From Acidimicrobiaceae bacterium (lineage in GTDB: Bacteria; Actinomycetota; Acidimicrobiia; Acidimicrobiales; RAAP-2): 38,425 bases of DNA. A program made the position numbers and the translations under genes. The stretch is taken from assembly GCA_003132305.1 (NCBI GenBank), contig PKXJ01000012.1:2152-40576 (forward strand), written 5' to 3'. Shown piece after piece: positions 915 to 37,594 of this stretch. How positions within the stretch are numbered: the stretch's first letter is position 1; each line of letters opens with the position of its first letter. Below the pieces are notes generated by a model, which was not told the origin of the DNA, did no database searches, and was given only the letters and a program-made list of their open reading frames with translations.

Positions 915-2159
915 TTATTCTCCGACTGACGTCGAAACGGGCGTTCTCCCGACGCGCACCCGCCACAGTTTCGGCCCGGACTCCAGATAGTCCCACGTGA
1001 ATTCACCGGCGTGCTGGGCTTCGAATTGGTAGCGCAATGGTTTCGGGTCGTGGTCGTTGACGATCACGAAGCCGCCCCCCGGGGAAAGGTGATCGTAGGT
1101 GGAAAAGATCACTTCGTGGCGCTGTCCGTGAGGGAGGACCCGCACGTCGAGCTCTTGAACCTTTGTTCCATCACGGGCATCACTCTCATTGGTGGTGGCG
1201 GCGCCGTACAACGGCCTGGTAATCCTCACGCGCCACACCTCGGGTCCGGACTCGATCGCGTCCCAGGTGAAGTCTCCCGCGTGCTCGGCTTCGAACTGGT
1301 AGCGCAGTGGCTTGGGATCGTGGTCGTTGACGAGCACGTAACCACTTCCGGGGGCGAGGGCGTGGAACTCGGAGAAGATTGTTTCGTGGCGCTGCGCCGG
1401 GGCCAGATGACGCACGTCAAGTTCTCGAATCGGCGTCTCGTCCGAGCCTTGGCGGCGCGAGCGCAGCGTGATCGGCTCGCTCGCTACCGTCCTGGCGAGT
1501 CGGTGCAGGCTGGCCGTGGTCTTGACGGCGAGCGCGGGTCTCGATGACCTCAGGGCGGCCCACGCCGAGGCGACCAGTTGGCAGGCTCGGTCACCGTGGC
1601 CGGCCTTCGAGAGTTCATTGGCCGCTTCGAGGAGAAGCGACAGGACGACTGCTTCGGAGTCGGCGCCCGGTGCTTTCTGCGAGGGTGGGTCGTTCGAAGT
1701 GGCGGTAGTCAGACGGTGCATCTGCTCCAGCAACTTGACGAGGTCCACGTCGTTATCTTCAAGGAGAGCGGGGAGTAGCAACTCGTTCTCCTTGACGACG
1801 TGGGTGGTAAAGAACGTGCCGATCTGCGTGGCCTGAGTGAGTGCCGCCGGGCCATTCGACGCGTTGGCCAGAGATTCGACGGCTGCGGTGAGCACACGGT
1901 GTTCGGCGATCATTTCGTTCACCGTGTTGGCCAGGTCCGCACGGGTGGCGGCCGTGCGGTAGATGGAGAGCTCTTCCGCCACTGCGTGGGGGATTACCTC
2001 CTCGGCGAGGTAGGTAACGAGTTCGGCTACCGCGGGCTCGTAAGCGATTCCCGAGTTCACGGCTTCGGCCAGCGCAGCGATCCTGTTATCGACGTCCGCC
2101 ACGAGCGTGCGGTGGTGCTGAAGCATCGTTTCGAGGGCTTCGATCTCAGTGATTGCCAT
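915..2159 (-). CDS. Hemerythrin HHE domain protein with two DUF2249 domains
   Basis: This 414-residue protein starts with a hemerythrin-like four-helix domain. Candidate di-iron ligands are H15/H16, H58, E62, H87, H120 and E124, spaced as in HHE proteins. After a linker it has two near-duplicate DUF2249 domains (about residues 246-315 and 335-405). Each begins with ELDVR and carries the segments Q-R-H-E and VNDHDPKPLRYQFEA. The start ATG lies behind a good AAAGGAG. Hemerythrin domains bind O2 or NO and can store or sense iron. DUF2249 domains recur beside denitrification and NO-handling genes, so a role in NO/O2 or iron-sulfur stress is plausible but not shown here. A TTCTAG-N6-CTAGAA palindrome sits 68 bp upstream, and the likely regulator is the next gene upstream. 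Confidence 0.88.
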   Translation of the reverse strand: MAITEIEALETMLQHHRTLVADVDNRIAALAEAVNSGIAYEPAVAELVTYLAEEVIPHAVAEELSIYRTAATRADLANTVNEMIAEHRVLTAAVESLANASNGPAALTQATQIGTFFTTHVVKENELLLPALLEDNDVDLVKLLEQMHRLTTATSNDPPSQKAPGADSEAVVLSLLLEAANELSKAGHGDRACQLVASAWAALRSSRPALAVKTTASLHRLARTVASEPITLRSRRQGSDETPIRELDVRHLAPAQRHETIFSEFHALAPGSGYVLVNDHDPKPLRYQFEAEHAGDFTWDAIESGPEVWRVRITRPLYGAATTNESDARDGTKVQELDVRVLPHGQRHEVIFSTYDHLSPGGGFVIVNDHDPKPLRYQFEAQHAGEFTWDYLESGPKLWRVRVGRTPVSTSVGE

Positions 2160-2476: not shown

Positions 2477-3145
2477 CTACGTCGGGCGCGACACGAGGTC
2501 ACGCTTGAAAACGAGACGACAACCGGCCCGGTGGGGGTCTTTGGGGGTGAGACGGTCAACAGTGACGTCGCCGAGGCTTTCACTGAGACCCTTGGCCAGA
2601 CCGAGATGGAGTTGGCAGACCGTGTCGGGGTCGTCGGCCGCGACTTCTTCGAACGGACAGCGCCCGAGAACGAAGGTCACCTGACGGCCCCGTTCGCGGC
2701 GGGTCGGGCGAAAGCCACTCTCGATCAACTCGCGCTCGAGAGTCTCAACGGAATCATCCTGCTCGAAATGTTGGCGCCCTCGTTCGAGGCCGGCTTGACG
2801 ACCGATTTCGTAAGGACTCATCCCGTTCTTCAAAGCCCTACTAAGTAATCCGGCCAGCCACGCGTACAGTCCCGGTGTCTCCCACTTGCCAGCCGCCTCG
2901 GGGTGCAGTCGGTAGAGCAGACGGGGACGCCCCGCGACGCTGCGCCTCTCCACCTCTTCAATGACGAGGTCGGTCTCTTTCAGCACGGCGAGATGCTGGC
3001 GCACCGCGTTGTGATTCAGACCCACATAGTCGGTCAGCTCCGCTACTCCGACTGGCTGGTCGGAGTCAACGATGTAGCGGAACAGGCGGTAGCGCGTCGG
3101 GTCGCCCAGGGCCCGGGCCTCGAGTTGGATGTCGACCGCGTCCAT
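2477..3145 (-). CDS. ArsR/SufR-like winged-helix regulator with C-terminal Cys cluster
   Basis: The protein has 222 residues. Residues 8-75 form a winged helix (ALGDPTRYRLFRYI, then NAVRQHLAVLKETDLV as recognition helix region). The middle is helical and the C-terminus carries C163, C177 and C209 in CPF...VCQLH...AGC context, with H180 as a possible fourth ligand. This arrangement matches the COG2345/SufR class, in which cysteines hold an iron-sulfur cluster that responds to iron, redox state or NO. A palindromic site lies 38 bp upstream, suggesting autoregulation, and similar sites precede the hemerythrin gene and the reductase gene. The cluster and its signal are inferred from the Cys pattern. 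Confidence 0.82.
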   Translation of the reverse strand: MDAVDIQLEARALGDPTRYRLFRYIVDSDQPVGVAELTDYVGLNHNAVRQHLAVLKETDLVIEEVERRSVAGRPRLLYRLHPEAAGKWETPGLYAWLAGLLSRALKNGMSPYEIGRQAGLERGRQHFEQDDSVETLERELIESGFRPTRRERGRQVTFVLGRCPFEEVAADDPDTVCQLHLGLAKGLSESLGDVTVDRLTPKDPHRAGCRLVFKRDLVSRPT

Positions 3146-4241: not shown

Positions 4242-5048
4242 GTGGTCCCCCCAATTGACGCCACCGCCGCGTCCGCGGCCACGACCATCGCGCCCGCGCG
4301 GACTGTTCGTGACGTCTCGAGTCGCCAGCCGGCACGTTGGCAGAACGCCCGGGTGATCGACATCATCGAAGAGACGCCAGACGCCGTGACCTTGCGGCTG
4401 CGACTCGTAGATTCTGCCGATTTTCTCCCGGGCCAGTACTACAACGTGCGACTGACGGTAGCTGGCCGGACCGGTCCGATTCAACGGGCTTACTCCGTTG
4501 CCTCCTCACCCGTGCCGGAGACCTCCACCATCGATATTGGAGTTCGCGAGGTACCTGGCGGTTTAATCTCACCGCAACTGGTCCGGGGTCTCAGCGTGGG
4601 TGACCAGATCCAGGTGCGAGGTCCGGTTGGGCGTTTCACCTGGACGATGGAAGATGGTGGTCCGGTCCTGTTGGTCGGAGCGGGCAGCGGTGTGGTCCCG
4701 CTCATGAGCATGGTTCGCTATGCGGTAGCGGCCGATCTCGACATCCCGATGCGCCTCGTATGCTCGTCGAGCAGTTTCGACAGCGCCTTCTATCACCGTG
4801 ACTTGGCCAATTTGGCTGAACAGCATTCGTGGTTGGAGGTCGTGCACACCCTTACTCGTGATTCGAGCGATGTTCGAGCAGCACACCACCGCCGGATCGA
4901 CCACCGCATGATCGTCGAGGCCGTTGCGGGTCAGCTACCGAGACGTGCTTACATCTGTGGCCCGCCAGCGATGGTGGAAGACGTGCAGGGCTGGCTAGGT
5001 GAACTTGGCGTCGATCCGCACTGGGTCCGGATCGAGAAGTACGACTGA
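4242..5048 (+). CDS. FNR-type FAD/NAD(P)-binding oxidoreductase
   Basis: The 268 residues form one ferredoxin-NADP reductase module. After about 30 variable residues comes the FAD beta-barrel with RAYSVASS (about residues 86-93). The NAD(P) domain has GAGSGVVPLMSMVR (about 147-160) and the terminal motif CGPPAMVEDV. No iron-sulfur ferredoxin domain is attached, so electrons must pass to a separate partner. GTG at 4242 is used with GAAAGG upstream. Such reductases serve oxygenases, sulfite/molybdopterin oxidases or flavohemoprotein-like partners. No partner is evident here except, speculatively, the hemerythrin protein, which may share regulation. Confidence 0.85.
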   Translation: MVPPIDATAASAATTIAPARTVRDVSSRQPARWQNARVIDIIEETPDAVTLRLRLVDSADFLPGQYYNVRLTVAGRTGPIQRAYSVASSPVPETSTIDIGVREVPGGLISPQLVRGLSVGDQIQVRGPVGRFTWTMEDGGPVLLVGAGSGVVPLMSMVRYAVAADLDIPMRLVCSSSSFDSAFYHRDLANLAEQHSWLEVVHTLTRDSSDVRAAHHRRIDHRMIVEAVAGQLPRRAYICGPPAMVEDVQGWLGELGVDPHWVRIEKYD

Positions 5049-5284: not shown

Positions 5285-5620
5285 GTGGACATCGTCAAAC
5301 TTAGCGATACGCCCGGGTACGACAACAACAAGTTCATTGCGCAGCCGTTCATCGAGGGTTCGCAGTCCAACGTCAGGGTCATCAAGCTCAATCCGGGCCA
5401 GACCCTGCCCCCTCACCGGCACGCCTCGTCGGATCTCATGCTCTTCGCCGTGGAGGGTGAGGGAGTTCTCCAAACGGAAAACGGTACGATCGCGTTCGCT
5501 GCGGGTTCCCTCGCCTTTTACCGCGGCGATGAGGAGCTGCGCGTCGCGAACGAAGGTCAAGTCGGGCTGACGCTGCTGGCGTTCCTCGCCCCGCCATTCC
5601 CACCGCGTTCCGAAACGTGA
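5285..5620 (+). CDS. Small cupin domain protein
   Basis: The 111-residue protein is a single-domain cupin. The first metal motif is visible as PPHRHASSDLMLFAVEGEG (His-x-His, then Glu) and the second region is LAFYRGDEELRVANEG. The second histidine is absent, so metal binding may be incomplete. It lies about 240 bp after the reductase, and a TATACCA motif occurs just upstream (around 5272). No clear strong ribosome binding site precedes the ATG. The substrate is unknown. The 5049-5284 gap shows no gene. Confidence 0.8.
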   Translation: MDIVKLSDTPGYDNNKFIAQPFIEGSQSNVRVIKLNPGQTLPPHRHASSDLMLFAVEGEGVLQTENGTIAFAAGSLAFYRGDEELRVANEGQVGLTLLAFLAPPFPPRSET

Positions 5621-5651
5621 ACGATCGGAGACTTGCGGGGAGCGGCGCCTG

Positions 5652-5849
5652 ATGCCTGATCACGGCGAGCGGCCCAACGAGGAGTTGTTCGCCCCGTCAA
5701 TGATTACGCCCGACGTGGTGACGAGTTTCCGGTCTCAACTGACAACGGGCGAGGACGTGGTCGATCCGGCGACGCGGGCGGGTACGCGTCGGTGCACTGA
5801 CCGTAGCACCCGACGCAACGCAGAGCACGAACGCATCACGAACTTTTGA
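5652..5849 (+). CDS. Possible small hypothetical protein
   Basis: A 65-codon open frame (starts MPDHGERPNEELFAPSMITP) begins 31 bases after the cupin stop. It matches no family I recognise and has no strong ribosome binding site. It may be a remnant or non-coding. Confidence 0.2.
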   Translation: MPDHGERPNEELFAPSMITPDVVTSFRSQLTTGEDVVDPATRAGTRRCTDRSTRRNAEHERITNF

Positions 5850-5984
5850 ACAGTCTCGTCACGGATTTGAGCACGATCGTGACACGCTCTCAAATCATTT
5901 GACATTCGCATCATTCGAACGCAAACTGGGTTGGTAGCGGCCCCAACGTTTGATCGGTCTCCGACCGATTGAAGCGAATACATT

Positions 5985-5990
5985 AAGGAG
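5985..5990 (+). promoter_or_regulatory. Strong ribosome binding site AAGGAG deciding the repeat-peptide start
   Basis: AAGGAG sits four bases before the ATG at 5995. It selects MENSDAD... over the longer in-frame ATG at 5950, which has no such site, and argues that the plus-strand repeat frame is translated rather than the overlapping long minus-strand frame. Confidence 0.65.
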
Positions 5991-5994
5991 ATAT

Positions 5995-6234
5995 ATGGAA
6001 AACTCAGACGCCGATGCAGTAGGTGGCGCCGACCAACGTGACGCCGATGCGGTAGGTGGCGCCGACCGACGTGACGCCGATGCGGTAGGTGGCGCCGACC
6101 AACGTGACGCCGATGCGGTAGGTGGCGCCGACCAACGTGACGCCGAAGACGTCGGTGGCGTCGATCAACGTGACGCCGAAGACGTCGGTGGCGCCGACCA
6201 GGGGAACACCGACGTGAATGGCGGGTATAACTGA
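5995..6234 (+). CDS. Small acidic protein of six 11-residue tandem repeats
   Basis: The 79-residue product has a four-residue start (MENS), then six units of the type DADAVGGADQR (units 2, 5 and 6 vary as ...ADRR, DAEDVGGVDQR, DAEDVGGADQG), and ends NTDVNGGYN, a degenerate seventh unit. It is strongly acidic, with no Cys, no membrane segment and no signal peptide. The four-base spacing from AAGGAG is near optimal. No family is recognised. Tandem D/G-rich units resemble multi-core precursor peptides or low-complexity metal-binding tails, but no peptide-modifying enzyme lies nearby, so either reading is speculation. The downstream partner on the same strand, 450 bp away, is a ferredoxin-reductase-type flavoprotein. 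Confidence 0.6.
   Translation: MENSDADAVGGADQRDADAVGGADRRDADAVGGADQRDADAVGGADQRDAEDVGGVDQRDAEDVGGADQGNTDVNGGYN
6007..6204 (+). repeat. Tandem 33-bp repeat, six copies
   Basis: Six head-to-tail units of exactly 33 bp start at 6007, 6040, 6073, 6106, 6139 and 6172. The first four are nearly identical (core GATGCGGTAGGTGGCGCCGA); the last two share GAAGACGTCGGTGGCG. Unit length is a multiple of three, so copy-number change keeps the reading frame of the encoded peptide. Confidence 0.95.
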
Positions 6235-6442
6235 ACAACTTCATCGCGAACGGAGTCCCTCCAATGTCGCCGGAATAGGAGGGTCGGATTTTCGGAACGT
6301 TCGAAGAAGATTTTGTAATGAAAGAACTTCGAAGGGCTGGCGATGAGGTCGACAATTTAGACTCGTAGTATCTGAGGTTTTCTTCTCAACCCACTTGCAC
6401 GCTTGCGGGGAGTGACCTCTCGGGGTAGCAATTTCGATAAGT

Positions 6443-6479
6443 ACGTTCGCCTGAGACCGAGTGAGTCTCGGCCGAACGT
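6443..6479. repeat. Inverted repeat / stem-loop
   Basis: ACGTTCG at 6443-6449 pairs with CGAACGT at 6473-6479, and the interior GAGAC/GTCTC extends the stem with one or two mismatches. No T-run follows on either strand, so it is not a clear intrinsic terminator; it could be an operator or an RNA hairpin upstream of the flavoprotein. The gap 6235-6689 otherwise shows only the weak open frames noted here, including a 16-codon one at 6318-6368. Confidence 0.45.
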
Positions 6480-6553
6480 CGTTGTTCCAGCCCCTGGCAG
6501 CGTAAGCACGAAGGGGGTGCCGAAACATTCCCGGAAGTAGAGGAGTAACAAGG

Positions 6554-6685
6554 ATGACTGCATTAGCGCGGTTCGCGCGCCCACGTGGGTCCGTTCGTCG
6601 GGATTTGAGTGTGTGCCGATGGCGGTGGCCGCGCTGTCGAATGGTGTTCGTGTCAGAACCTTGTTCCGGGGGACGAAAGTCGTGA
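6554..6685 (+). CDS. Possible 43-residue leader ORF before the flavoprotein
   Basis: An ATG with GAGGAG about eight bases upstream opens a 43-codon Arg-rich frame (MTALARFARPRGSV...) that stops four bases before the flavoprotein ATG. That geometry would suit translational coupling. The sequence has no recognised family, so it may be a leader peptide, a gene remnant or chance. Confidence 0.25.
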   Translation: MTALARFARPRGSVRRDLSVCRWRWPRCRMVFVSEPCSGGRKS

Positions 6686-6689
6686 CGAG

Positions 6690-7937
6690 ATGACACGACG
6701 ACAGACGTTCGTAATCGTGGGCGGTGGTTTGGCCGGCGCCAAAGCGGCCGAAGCCCTGCGCACCGAGGGTTTCGACGGGCGCGTTGTCCTCATCGGCGAT
6801 GAGACCGAGCGTCCCTACGACCGCCCTCCGCTATCGAAGGACTACCTCCAAGGGAAATCAGAGAAGGAGAAAATCTACGTTCATCCTGAGGGATGGTATG
6901 ACGACCATGACGTCGAGCTTCGCCTCAACTGTCCGGCCACGCTCATTGATGTCGCCGCTCACCAACTGACCGTTCAGTCCGGCGAGCACTTCGATTACGA
7001 CAAACTACTGCTGACGACGGGCTCGTCCCCTCGTCGCCTCAAGGTGCCCGGCAACGACCTCGACGGAGTGCTGTACCTGCGAAGAGTGGCCGACTGCGAG
7101 GCAATCAAGGCTGCGTTCACAACGGCGAAGCGAGTTGCGATCATCGGCGCGGGCTGGATCGGCCTCGAGACCGCAGCCGCGGCGCGCGCGGCTGGCGTGG
7201 AGGCGACGGTGTTAGAGACAGCGGAACTGCCACTGGTGCGCGTACTCGGTCCCGAGGTTGCCGAGATCTTTCTTAACCTGCACACTCGCCACGGGGTCAC
7301 GATGCGCATGGGCGTCGAGGTCGCCGAAATCACGGGTGTGGACCATCGGACCTCCGGCGTGCGCCTCGCAGACGGCGACGAGATCGACGCTGACGTCGTC
7401 ATCGTTGGCGTGGGCATCACCCCGAACACCGAGTTGGCCGAGGCGGCCGGGCTTACCATCGATAATGGGATAGTTGTCAACGAACATCTGAGAAGCTCGG
7501 ATCCCGATATTTTCGCGGCTGGCGACGTGGCCAATGCGTGGTACCCGTCGCTCGGACGTCACCTCCGACTAGAGCACTGGTCCGCTGCCCTCAACCAAGG
7601 ACCCGTGGCCGCAGCCAACATGTTGGGCCGCGCTCTCGCCTATGACCGTGTGCCCTACTTCTACTCCGACCAGTACGAACTGGGCATGGAGTACTCGGGC
7701 TACGTCGAGTCTGGCCACTACGACCAGATCGTCTTTCGCGGTGAGGTGGCCAAGGGGAAGTACATCGTCTTCTGGCTCGGGCAGGGACGCGTGCTCGCGG
7801 GCATGAACGTCAACGTTTGGGACGTTACCGAGGCCATTGCCAACCTCGTCCGCTCGGGTGACCAGATCGACGTAACTCGACTACGAGATCCCGAAGTGGC
7901 ATTGGAAGATCTCCTCCACGGTGCCCATCGCGTCTAG
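6690..7937 (+). CDS. NAD(P)H:ferredoxin/rubredoxin reductase-type flavoprotein
   Basis: From ATG 6690 the protein has 415 residues, the usual size of rhodocoxin/putidaredoxin reductase-type FAD enzymes. Residues 6-20 hold the FAD dinucleotide fold (FVIVGGGLAGAKAAEAL), then RPYDRPPLSKDYL. Near 143-158 is the NAD(P) fold (VAIIGAGWIGLETAAAAR), and DIFAAGDVAN near 271-280 is the second FAD motif. The C-terminal domain ends with LGQGRVLAGMNVNVWDVTEAI. I rejected the upstream start at 6609 because the added residues are not family-like. These enzymes pass electrons from NAD(P)H to a ferredoxin or rubredoxin, usually for a P450 or oxygenase; neither partner is in the window. A degraded paralogue end lies at 3310-3490. 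Confidence 0.9.
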   Translation: MTRRQTFVIVGGGLAGAKAAEALRTEGFDGRVVLIGDETERPYDRPPLSKDYLQGKSEKEKIYVHPEGWYDDHDVELRLNCPATLIDVAAHQLTVQSGEHFDYDKLLLTTGSSPRRLKVPGNDLDGVLYLRRVADCEAIKAAFTTAKRVAIIGAGWIGLETAAAARAAGVEATVLETAELPLVRVLGPEVAEIFLNLHTRHGVTMRMGVEVAEITGVDHRTSGVRLADGDEIDADVVIVGVGITPNTELAEAAGLTIDNGIVVNEHLRSSDPDIFAAGDVANAWYPSLGRHLRLEHWSAALNQGPVAAANMLGRALAYDRVPYFYSDQYELGMEYSGYVESGHYDQIVFRGEVAKGKYIVFWLGQGRVLAGMNVNVWDVTEAIANLVRSGDQIDVTRLRDPEVALEDLLHGAHRV

Positions 7938-27652: not shown

Positions 27653-28549
27653 CTACATCGCGCCCAGGAGTTCGTAGATTATGTGTGCCGCGGCGATACC
27701 TGTGATCTCCGCGTGGTCGTAGACCGGCGATACCTCGACGACATCCGCGCCAACGAAGTTTCGTTGGCGTAGTGAACGAAGAATCGCGAGTAGTTCACGG
27801 CTAGTGAGCCCACCGGCCTCTGGGGTTCCCGTACCTGGCGCGTGCGCGGGATCGAGCACGTCGATGTCAACCGACACGTACATCGGGCGATCCCCGACAC
27901 GCTCGGCAATCTTCTCTATCGCACCCTTCACGCCAATGTCGTCGAGTTCGATGGTGGAGAAGATCTCGAAACCGAGGTCGGCGTCATCTTCTAAGTCCTT
28001 TGTTGAGTACAACGGACCGCGAACTCCGACGTGCATCGAACCTTCGCGATCGATCAAACCCTCCTCCGACGCACGGCGAAACGGTGTGCCGTGGGTGTAC
28101 CGCGCGCCAAAATAAGTATTCCAGGTATCGAGGTGAGCGTCAAAGTGCACGACGCTGATTGGCCCGTGCTTGGCCGCCATCGCGCGCAGTAGCGGCAGAG
28201 CGATGGTGTGGTCACCGCCAATCGAGATGACGCGCTCCGCCCGTTCGTGAAGTTCCCGACTGGCCCGCTCAATGTCCGCTAGGGCTTCACCGATATCGAA
28301 AGGGTTGACCGCGATATCACCCGCGTCGGCCACTTGGTATTTCTCAAAGGACGAGACGTCGGCGGCGGGGTTGTATGGGCGCAGAAGCCGCGATGATTGA
28401 CGAACGTGCGCGGGGCCAAACCGCGCCCCGGGTCGATAACTCGCGCCCGCGTCAAACGGTATACCGACGATGGCCACGTTCACGTCACTGACGTCGTCTA
28501 TTTGTGGTAGGCGAGCGAAGGTTGCCAGGCCGGCGTAGCGAGGGACCAA
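27653..28549 (-). CDS. Agmatinase/guanidino acid ureohydrolase family protein
   Basis: The protein has 298 residues from TTG 28549. All Mn ligands of the ureohydrolase family are present: His in GGDHT, Asp-His-Asp in DAHLD and Asp-x-Asp in DIDVLD, with [10 protein letters not shown] at the N-terminus. The gene probably begins 20 codons earlier: a perfect AAGGAGG lies five bases before an ATC codon at 28607-28609, and the codons after it ([19 protein letters not shown]) match the start of the broken paralogue at 36263. It hydrolyses a guanidino group to urea and an amine. Agmatine, guanidinobutyrate and guanidinopropionate are all possible, and the context with a TPP enzyme favours guanidinobutyrate. 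Confidence 0.9.
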
Positions 28550-36262: not shown

Positions 36263-37228
36263 ATGCTGGCTAACGAAAGCGAGGGGAACGTGGGCCCGGT
36301 CGACGCGACTACGATCCCACGGTTCGCAGGTTCCCCACGTTTGCACGATTGCCTCGACGGGAGGATGTTGATCGCTGCGATGTTGCTGTTCTCGGAATGC
36401 CCTTTGACTCCGGGACCAGTTATCGCCCGGGCGCTCGCTTCGGTCCCGAATCCATCCGAGCGGGATCGCGCCTTCTCCGACCGTACAATCCGGGACTTGA
36501 TGTTTCTCCATTCAAAACACTTCAGGTCGCTGACGCCGGCGATCTCGCGATCAACCCGTTCAGCATCGACGACGCGATCACGGACATCGAGGATGGCCTC
36601 GAGCACGTGCTCCAGACGAGCACCCGGGTCATAACGCTGGGCGGCGACCACACTCGCCCTGCCGATCCTGCGAGTTCTCAATCGAAGGCACGGCCCGATC
36701 GCGGTCGTGCATTTCGACGCTCATCTCGACACCTGGGATCCGTACTTCGGCGCGCGGATCACTCACGGGACACCGTTTCGTCGGGCTTCAGAGTAAGGGC
36801 TGCTCGCAAAGGGTAACTGCATACGCCTGGGCATCAGAGGTCCGCTGTACGATCGCCTCGACCTGTCACGTGACTCGGATCTTGGCTTCATGGTGCGACC
36901 CGCCAGTGCCATGGGCGAGGTGCATCACGATCAGATTCTTGCTGAAATTCGCCATCGTGTCGAGAGTTGGCCAGTGTACGTTTCGGTGGATATCGACGTA
37001 CTCGATCCCGGGTTTGCACCGGGCACCGGAACACCTGAACCGGGTGGCTTGACCAGTCGCGAACTTCTGGGGCTGTTGCGAGGGCTCACGGGGCTCCCGA
37101 TTATCGGTGCGGATGTCGTTGAGGTAGGACCGTCGTACGACAATGCGGGGATCACTGCGCTGGCCGCTGCACACGTGACCTATGAGCTCATATCTCTCAT
37201 GGCCCTGCAAGCCGACGTGCCTTTGTAG
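36263..37228 (+). pseudogene. Second ureohydrolase, broken by two frameshifts and a stop
   Basis: The full-length agmatinase-family sequence can be read through three frames. It starts at ATG 36263 (MLANESEGNVGPVDATTIPR). It loses one base near 36328 (AG-FPTFARLP) and two bases near 36655 ([12 protein letters not shown]). After RRASE at about 36790 there is TAA where the intact copy has a sense codon, and it ends ITALAAAHVTYELISLMAL. All metal-binding motifs survive (GGDH, DAHLD, DIDVLD), so decay is recent. It is the paralogue of 27653-28549 and confirms that protein's longer N-terminus. Its position after the TetR gene fits the original operon. Confidence 0.9.
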
Positions 37229-37558: not shown

Positions 37559-37594
37559 AATGAGGGATGTAATGAGGGATGTAATGAGGGATGT
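37559..37594. repeat. Tandem 12-bp repeat, three copies
   Basis: AATGAGGGATGT occurs three times head to tail at 37559, 37571 and 37583. The minus strand reads NIPHYIPHYIPHFSKTR before a stop, recalling the NPTxNPTH tails near the other junctions. Confidence 0.85.

Follow-up and report, generated by a model that had tools for sequence, protein, structure and literature searches.

Hydrophilins are recognized by composition, with glycine above 6% and a mean hydropathy below −1, and by protecting enzymes against drying and being induced under water stress; units of 11 residues are also found in group 3 LEA proteins. Among calcium repeats, the RTX nonapeptide reads GGxGxDxU, and EF-hands are defined by a PROSITE-type loop pattern. 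A methionine-rich peptide, MrpX, is reportedly associated with a methionine sulfoxide reductase and is said, by title, to be periplasmic. In Borg tandem-repeat proteins, almost every repeat sequence is unique at the DNA level, both inside an element and from one element to another (PMC9879509). The gene described here belongs to a distinct family that has a unit of its own, though one resembling hydrophilins and Borg tandem-repeat proteins in kind.

Each of these likenesses is partial. As with MrpX, the products are small peptides, and Msr genes lie near in two subgroups with Met at unit position 5; in contrast, the family has no evident export signal and the unit of the gene studied here has Val, not Met. 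The description of an MrpX-type scavenger (Met-rich, with Msr nearby) does not fit this protein, and fits other subgroups in part. The likeness to RTX, EF-hand, and thrombospondin-3 repeats consists of Asp and Gly at fixed spacing, and D-x-D-x-x-G-x-x-D-x-x-D, present at four places in our protein, fits several EF-loop positions. However, the three defining patterns match 0/23 family members, and a calcium-repeat reading was rejected. Hydrophilins and LEA-like proteins (PMC10816898) share small size, disorder, a Gly-rich and hydrophilic composition, and short tandem units. In contrast, most members of the present family are strongly acidic, there is no family match, only 10/23 pass the hydrophilin composition rule (ours passes, with Gly at 19% and a hydropathy of −1.04), and the Gly in each unit would break an LEA helix. 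With the Borg proteins, the family shares in-frame units, disorder, a near absence of Cys and Trp, and motif-like units. Unlike in Borg proteins, most of the protein here consists of the array, and a single consensus is kept across many species.

The window analyzed is a 38,425-nt stretch (contig C8, 2152–40576) of a 2.9 Mb genome (G000). Its repeat protein gene, at 5995–6234 on the plus strand with the stop codon included, encodes 79 residues; the assignment rests on the sequence, on relatives, and on selection on the frame among those relatives. The six in-frame 33-bp units proposed by the sequence-only reading were confirmed at 6007–6204 (plus strand), each of 11 residues with the core [DE]-x-V-G-G-x-D or the variant DAEDVGG. 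The encoded order is MENS, the six units (DADAVGGADQR, DADAVGGADRR, DADAVGGADQR twice, DAEDVGGVDQR, and DAEDVGGADQG), and NTDVNGGYN. Conservation of residues at every unit position, also proposed, holds in most units but not in the last two, which have diverged to DAED; units 1–4 are near identical and therefore appear recently copied. Tandem Repeats Finder (TRF) assigns the array a period of 33, 5.9 copies, 93% matches, and a score of 304, the highest among the 7 TRF rows of the window. The ribosome binding site, AAGGAG at 5985–5990 (plus strand), is present as claimed, but its spacer to the ATG (5995–5997) is short, at 4 nt. The sequence AGGAGATATATG at this site is also present in a relative, L021. 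A scan of 5600–6720 for sigma-70-type promoters and terminators found none, and no RNA family reached its gathering threshold in the window. A 15-bp inverted repeat with a 7-nt loop lies at 6443–6479, between the repeat gene and a ferredoxin reductase gene.

Differences among the window's own units number 5, 18, and 42 at codon positions 1, 2, and 3, respectively. The minus strand is also open across the array, as a 206-residue ORF at 5735–6355, so openness alone proves nothing, and the strand and frame rest on relatives. The comparison covers 17 pairs of relatives, which share sequences and are not independent. Pooled pN/pS was 0.49 in the gene frame, which is free of stops across all 17, versus 0.69–1.46 in the other five frames. 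The minus-strand ORF (HRRHVGRRHLP type) was rejected, with pooled values of 0.69–1.45 and stops in the three minus frames. Another frame gave a lower value in 2/17 pairs (L029/L071 and L027/L031). The pair L030/L067, with a pN/pS of 1.01, was excluded from the pooled set because of the N in L030. The window's gene lacks a close ortholog and does not figure in the 17 pairs. At the level of sequence comparison, the relatives are shown to be under selection in this frame and on this strand.

There is good support for the ORF being a genuine gene and for its membership in a family of small acidic repeat proteins. Such a gene is held by 22/99 genomes of the window's genus, giving 23 proteins. The unit profile A1 matched 23 of the 99, and we discounted one (G047, in a 696-residue frame) as chance-like. 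A second profile, A3, returned at E ≤ 0.001 the identical 22 plus G887, or 23/172 genomes; at E ≤ 0.05 it reached 45 genomes, of which the 22 above E 0.001 were dropped as chance-like, five of the dropped loci having been inspected (L139, L140, L141, L143, and L144). The 23 include L024, which ends at a contig edge, L026, in which a TAG follows the third unit, and the N-containing L030, while L074, L075, and L076 were inspected and left out. A single such gene was found in the host genome, two further matches (E 0.08 and 0.8) being read as chance.

One relative lies outside the genus, in another genus of the same family (G887; L138 1333–1608, the same gene within L150). It carries DVMGG units between acidic spacers at a 13-residue spacing, and sits upstream of a thiamine-diphosphate enzyme gene that reads as acetolactate synthase. 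Across 397 sampled genomes of the wider order, the only genomes with matches were G000 and G101, each a member of the window's genus, and 396 sampled genomes of the phylum gave, besides the window's own match, one 19-residue match in a 578-residue frame and nothing convincing. The window protein was unmatched in phage and plasmid collections searched with the low-complexity filter on. A DNA pattern of paired DVMGG motifs, searched in 327 order genomes, gave one match (G187), read as chance; this pattern does not match the window, and the sample contains no known Met-type member as a positive control. Several candidates were rejected: three viral-contig loci, in which the matched stretch is pentapeptide-repeat-like; L006 (G097, same order but another family, minus strand, E 1.1e-7), a 263-residue protein with a different 11-residue repeat of TKRDLDALGLS type; L014–L018, with wrong-strand or chance-like frames; and G583, which like G047 has a short match inside a long frame. 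Among the genomes sampled so far, the family occurs almost only in one actinobacterial genus.

The sequence-only reading had recognized no relatives. This stands for named families, in that the window protein has no match in Pfam or NCBIfam and a best E of 0.11 in PHROGs, but relatives are present in unannotated genomes. Among 17 members scanned, single ones match Pentapeptide_3 (PF13576, 7.5e-5, not the window) and Root_cap in Pfam, one matches an NCBIfam nickel/cobalt efflux model, and two unnamed PHROGs are also matched by single members (2.1e-5 and 5.5e-5). We read these isolated matches as compositional. The PF13576-matching member looks likely to be L065, which is predicted to be unfolded, and a pentapeptide repeat is rejected, the period being 11 rather than 5 and the match confined to 1/17 members. 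None of the families in Pfam, NCBIfam, or PHROGs accounts for the repeat family, and no description of it was found among the top-ranked papers of the open-licence literature.

The unit consensus is roughly [DE]-x-[MVLI]-G-x-x-D-x-x. When 108 units are anchored on [MVLI]-G alone, 93 of them carry D at position 9, while at position 3 there are 64 with D and 26 with E. A stricter rule, with limits on positions 3 and 9 as well, keeps 99 units, in which position 5 is M (49), V (37), L (8), or I (5) and position 7 is G in 50. By a strict rule, the relatives span 2 to 7 units, bearing out the check for homologs with other repeat numbers. Successive units are exactly 11 residues apart in 70/76 cases, spacings under 9 having been filtered out, and 22/23 members have a ribosome-site match of at least 4 nt before the chosen ATG (21 scored, L071 by eye, with starts picked with that site in view). 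Frame-breaking units, or loci lacking a start or ribosome site, had been named as contrary evidence; the family passed on both counts, although the frame-integrity comparison leans towards passing because protein profiles favor intact frames, and decayed copies may be undercounted. The consensus is unchanged across subgroups of low DNA similarity, and since G887 keeps the DVMGG core at a 13-residue period, the core motif rather than the period seems conserved. Small repetitive ORFs are easily lost from annotation; here comparison reveals that such an ORF can belong to a conserved family whose unit is strict.

AlphaFold2 predicts neither helix nor strand for the window protein (17 sequences, mean pLDDT 48.6) or for L065, the most hydrophobic member (10 sequences, mean pLDDT 49.6). 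These predictions, which come from few sequences and are not proof, support a view of the family's proteins as probably unfolded. Against solved structures, the best match was chance-like (E 0.44). The 23 members contain no Cys in 1791 residues and have net charges of −1 to −31. The most hydrophobic 12-residue stretch in any of them has a mean of 1.65, and they are predicted to have no evident export signal. The window units contain no Cys, Ser, Thr, or Lys, the last three of which do occur in other members, and the only Met of the window protein is its start Met.

The neighboring genes differ by subgroup. In the window, a reductase with FAD_binding_6 and NAD_binding_1 domains (4242–5048, plus strand) lies ∼0.95 kb upstream of the repeat gene. 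It is found within ∼1 kb in three genomes, and in L021 and L025 it is on the opposite side. A small cupin (5285–5620, plus strand), whose ORF ends 374 bp before the repeat ORF, adjoins the reductase in the window and in L021, the latter identified by sequence rather than family search. Reductase copies of at least 70% identity occur in 7/99 genus genomes, and with ∼1.5 kb of flank the repeat gene is at 3/13 reductase loci examined and absent from 10/13. A ferredoxin reductase-like flavoprotein (6690–7937, plus strand; start chosen by us) begins 455 bp downstream; in relatives it was not seen linked to the repeat gene. A ferritin/Dps-like gene (PF00210 in the L002 copy) begins 98–170 bp downstream of the repeat gene in L022, L023, and L077. 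Ferritin-like matches number 33, in 27/99 genus genomes, and the repeat gene is at 3/30 such loci examined and absent from 27/30 (∼1.5 kb flank). MsrA is less than 4 kb from the repeat gene in 4/22 genomes (G042, G048, G103, and G117) versus ∼0.08 expected, a comparison in which MsrA was chosen for counting after it had been seen, close species are not independent, and the background covers MsrA alone among redox genes, which are common. In L067, MsrA and MsrB are both downstream; the window genome has its MsrA on contig C28, not C8. Other neighbors are a nitroreductase (L068), a flavin reductase and DJ-1 (L066), CMD and DsrE (L026), and Nramp (L023). Some members have no redox neighbor among those annotated: L064, and by similarity L029, adjoins the housekeeping gene typA (the annotated case being L064), and L065 lies beside a β-propeller protein and DUF1801. 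L024, L065, and L066 have ∼110 bp of upstream DNA in common, but no shared neighboring gene was found, which leaves these three loci without an evident partner. In a clustering of crude ORFs, no gene family is common to all subgroups.

Considered together, composition, predicted disorder, and context suggest a lineage-restricted, disordered polyanion that assists in redox or iron stress and may buffer metals or oxidants; we hold this reading tentatively, at a little under even. Weighing against it are the change of neighbor from subgroup to subgroup, the members lacking a redox neighbor, the ferritin-like and reductase loci without the repeat gene, the two pairs with a lower ratio in another frame, and the pass rate of 10/23 under the hydrophilin rule. 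Each copy would serve a local redox/iron stress module, here the reductase and cupin, elsewhere a ferritin/Dps-like protein, MsrA/MsrB, or a nitroreductase. The protein may act as a flexible polyanion, neither through folding nor through catalysis, its regularly spaced Asp/Glu and Met/Val-Gly positions buffering metal ions or oxidants or shielding a partner. Unit number is proposed to set capacity, which would explain its variability. A more specific and quite improbable version makes these proteins new modular stress peptides, with the motif [DE]-x-Φ-G-x-x-D (Φ hydrophobic) on a disordered chain beside varied redox/iron enzymes: Met at Φ would be a reversible oxidant sink by MsrA/MsrB, and Val with extra Asp/His an iron buffer by ferritin-like proteins. 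With 23 related sequences and natural variation in unit number and the key residue (Met/Val), function is testable with synthetic peptides.

A serious rival, although on balance unlikely, is a multivalent docking scaffold in which the short linear motif [DE]-x-[MVLI]-G would dock onto a single partner protein, with several copies of the motif brought together by the array. The motif is kept more strictly than the spacers, G887 retains its core at 13 rather than 11 residues, and predicted disorder would suit such a role. However, no gene family recurs in more than 5/23 loci, those that recur being ABC-ATPase-type; this clustering worked on crude ORFs and overlooked genes, among them the ferritin-like gene of L023. 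The only binding shell examined, encapsulin, is in 5/99 genus genomes and in 1/22 repeat-bearing ones, and is absent from the window's; the idea of an encapsulin cargo array was rejected.

Distinctly unlikely, in our estimate, is a metal buffer or metallochaperone proper, which would bind Fe2+, Mn2+, or Ni2+ with its Asp residues, joined in some members by His. The Asp residues are at fixed spacing, and an Nramp gene lies ∼1.4 kb upstream in L023. Two of the three members beside a ferritin/Dps-like gene have His-rich stretches and lie just before that gene: L077 has a (DH)n tract and L022 the sequence GHRHDD. The metal-binding tail named in the sequence-only reading may therefore apply. However, His is scarce elsewhere, Cys is absent, unit position 5 is hydrophobic, and the three calcium-repeat patterns are missing throughout the 23.

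The polyanionic stress accessory is also preferred over a multi-core RiPP precursor, in which each unit would be modified and then cut out. The repeated-core layout, for which the sequence-only reading had raised this comparison, is real, and the N-terminal part is longer in L027, L031, and L072, which have related GntR-type genes beside them; L027 also has a transporter. But no modifying enzyme is found among the annotated neighbors of the window and 17/22 other loci, one to four each, and Cys is absent from all 23. With no such enzyme there, and no Cys, Ser, Thr, or Lys in the window unit, the precursor reading does not hold up well and we consider it very unlikely; Asp- or Arg-directed RiPP chemistry is possible. 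TTGTAT..ATACAA palindrome-like sequences, a possible operator, lie upstream in the same three loci, most clearly in L031. Equally improbable is minisatellite expansion in a dispensable ORF under selection only against frame loss, to which the near-identical window units 1–4, variable unit number, 77/99 genus genomes without a credible match, and the L030/L067 ratio would conform, but against which stand pN/pS ratios clearly under 1 for most of the remaining pairs, the ribosome sites in 22/23 members, and one consensus across dissimilar subgroups.

Three further features of the window were noted. Upstream of the reductase, a Hemerythrin domain is fused to DUF2249 repeats (915–2159, minus strand) near an ArsR-type regulator (2477–3145), and this region resembles a stress cluster for iron or nitric oxide. 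Two ORFs (36349–36816 and 36890–37228), perhaps frame-broken, read by eye as arginase/agmatinase-like (36349–37228, plus strand), and a longer ORF at 27653–28549 (minus strand) is similar to the pair. A 12-bp unit, AATGAGGGATGT, is present in three perfect copies at 37559–37594.
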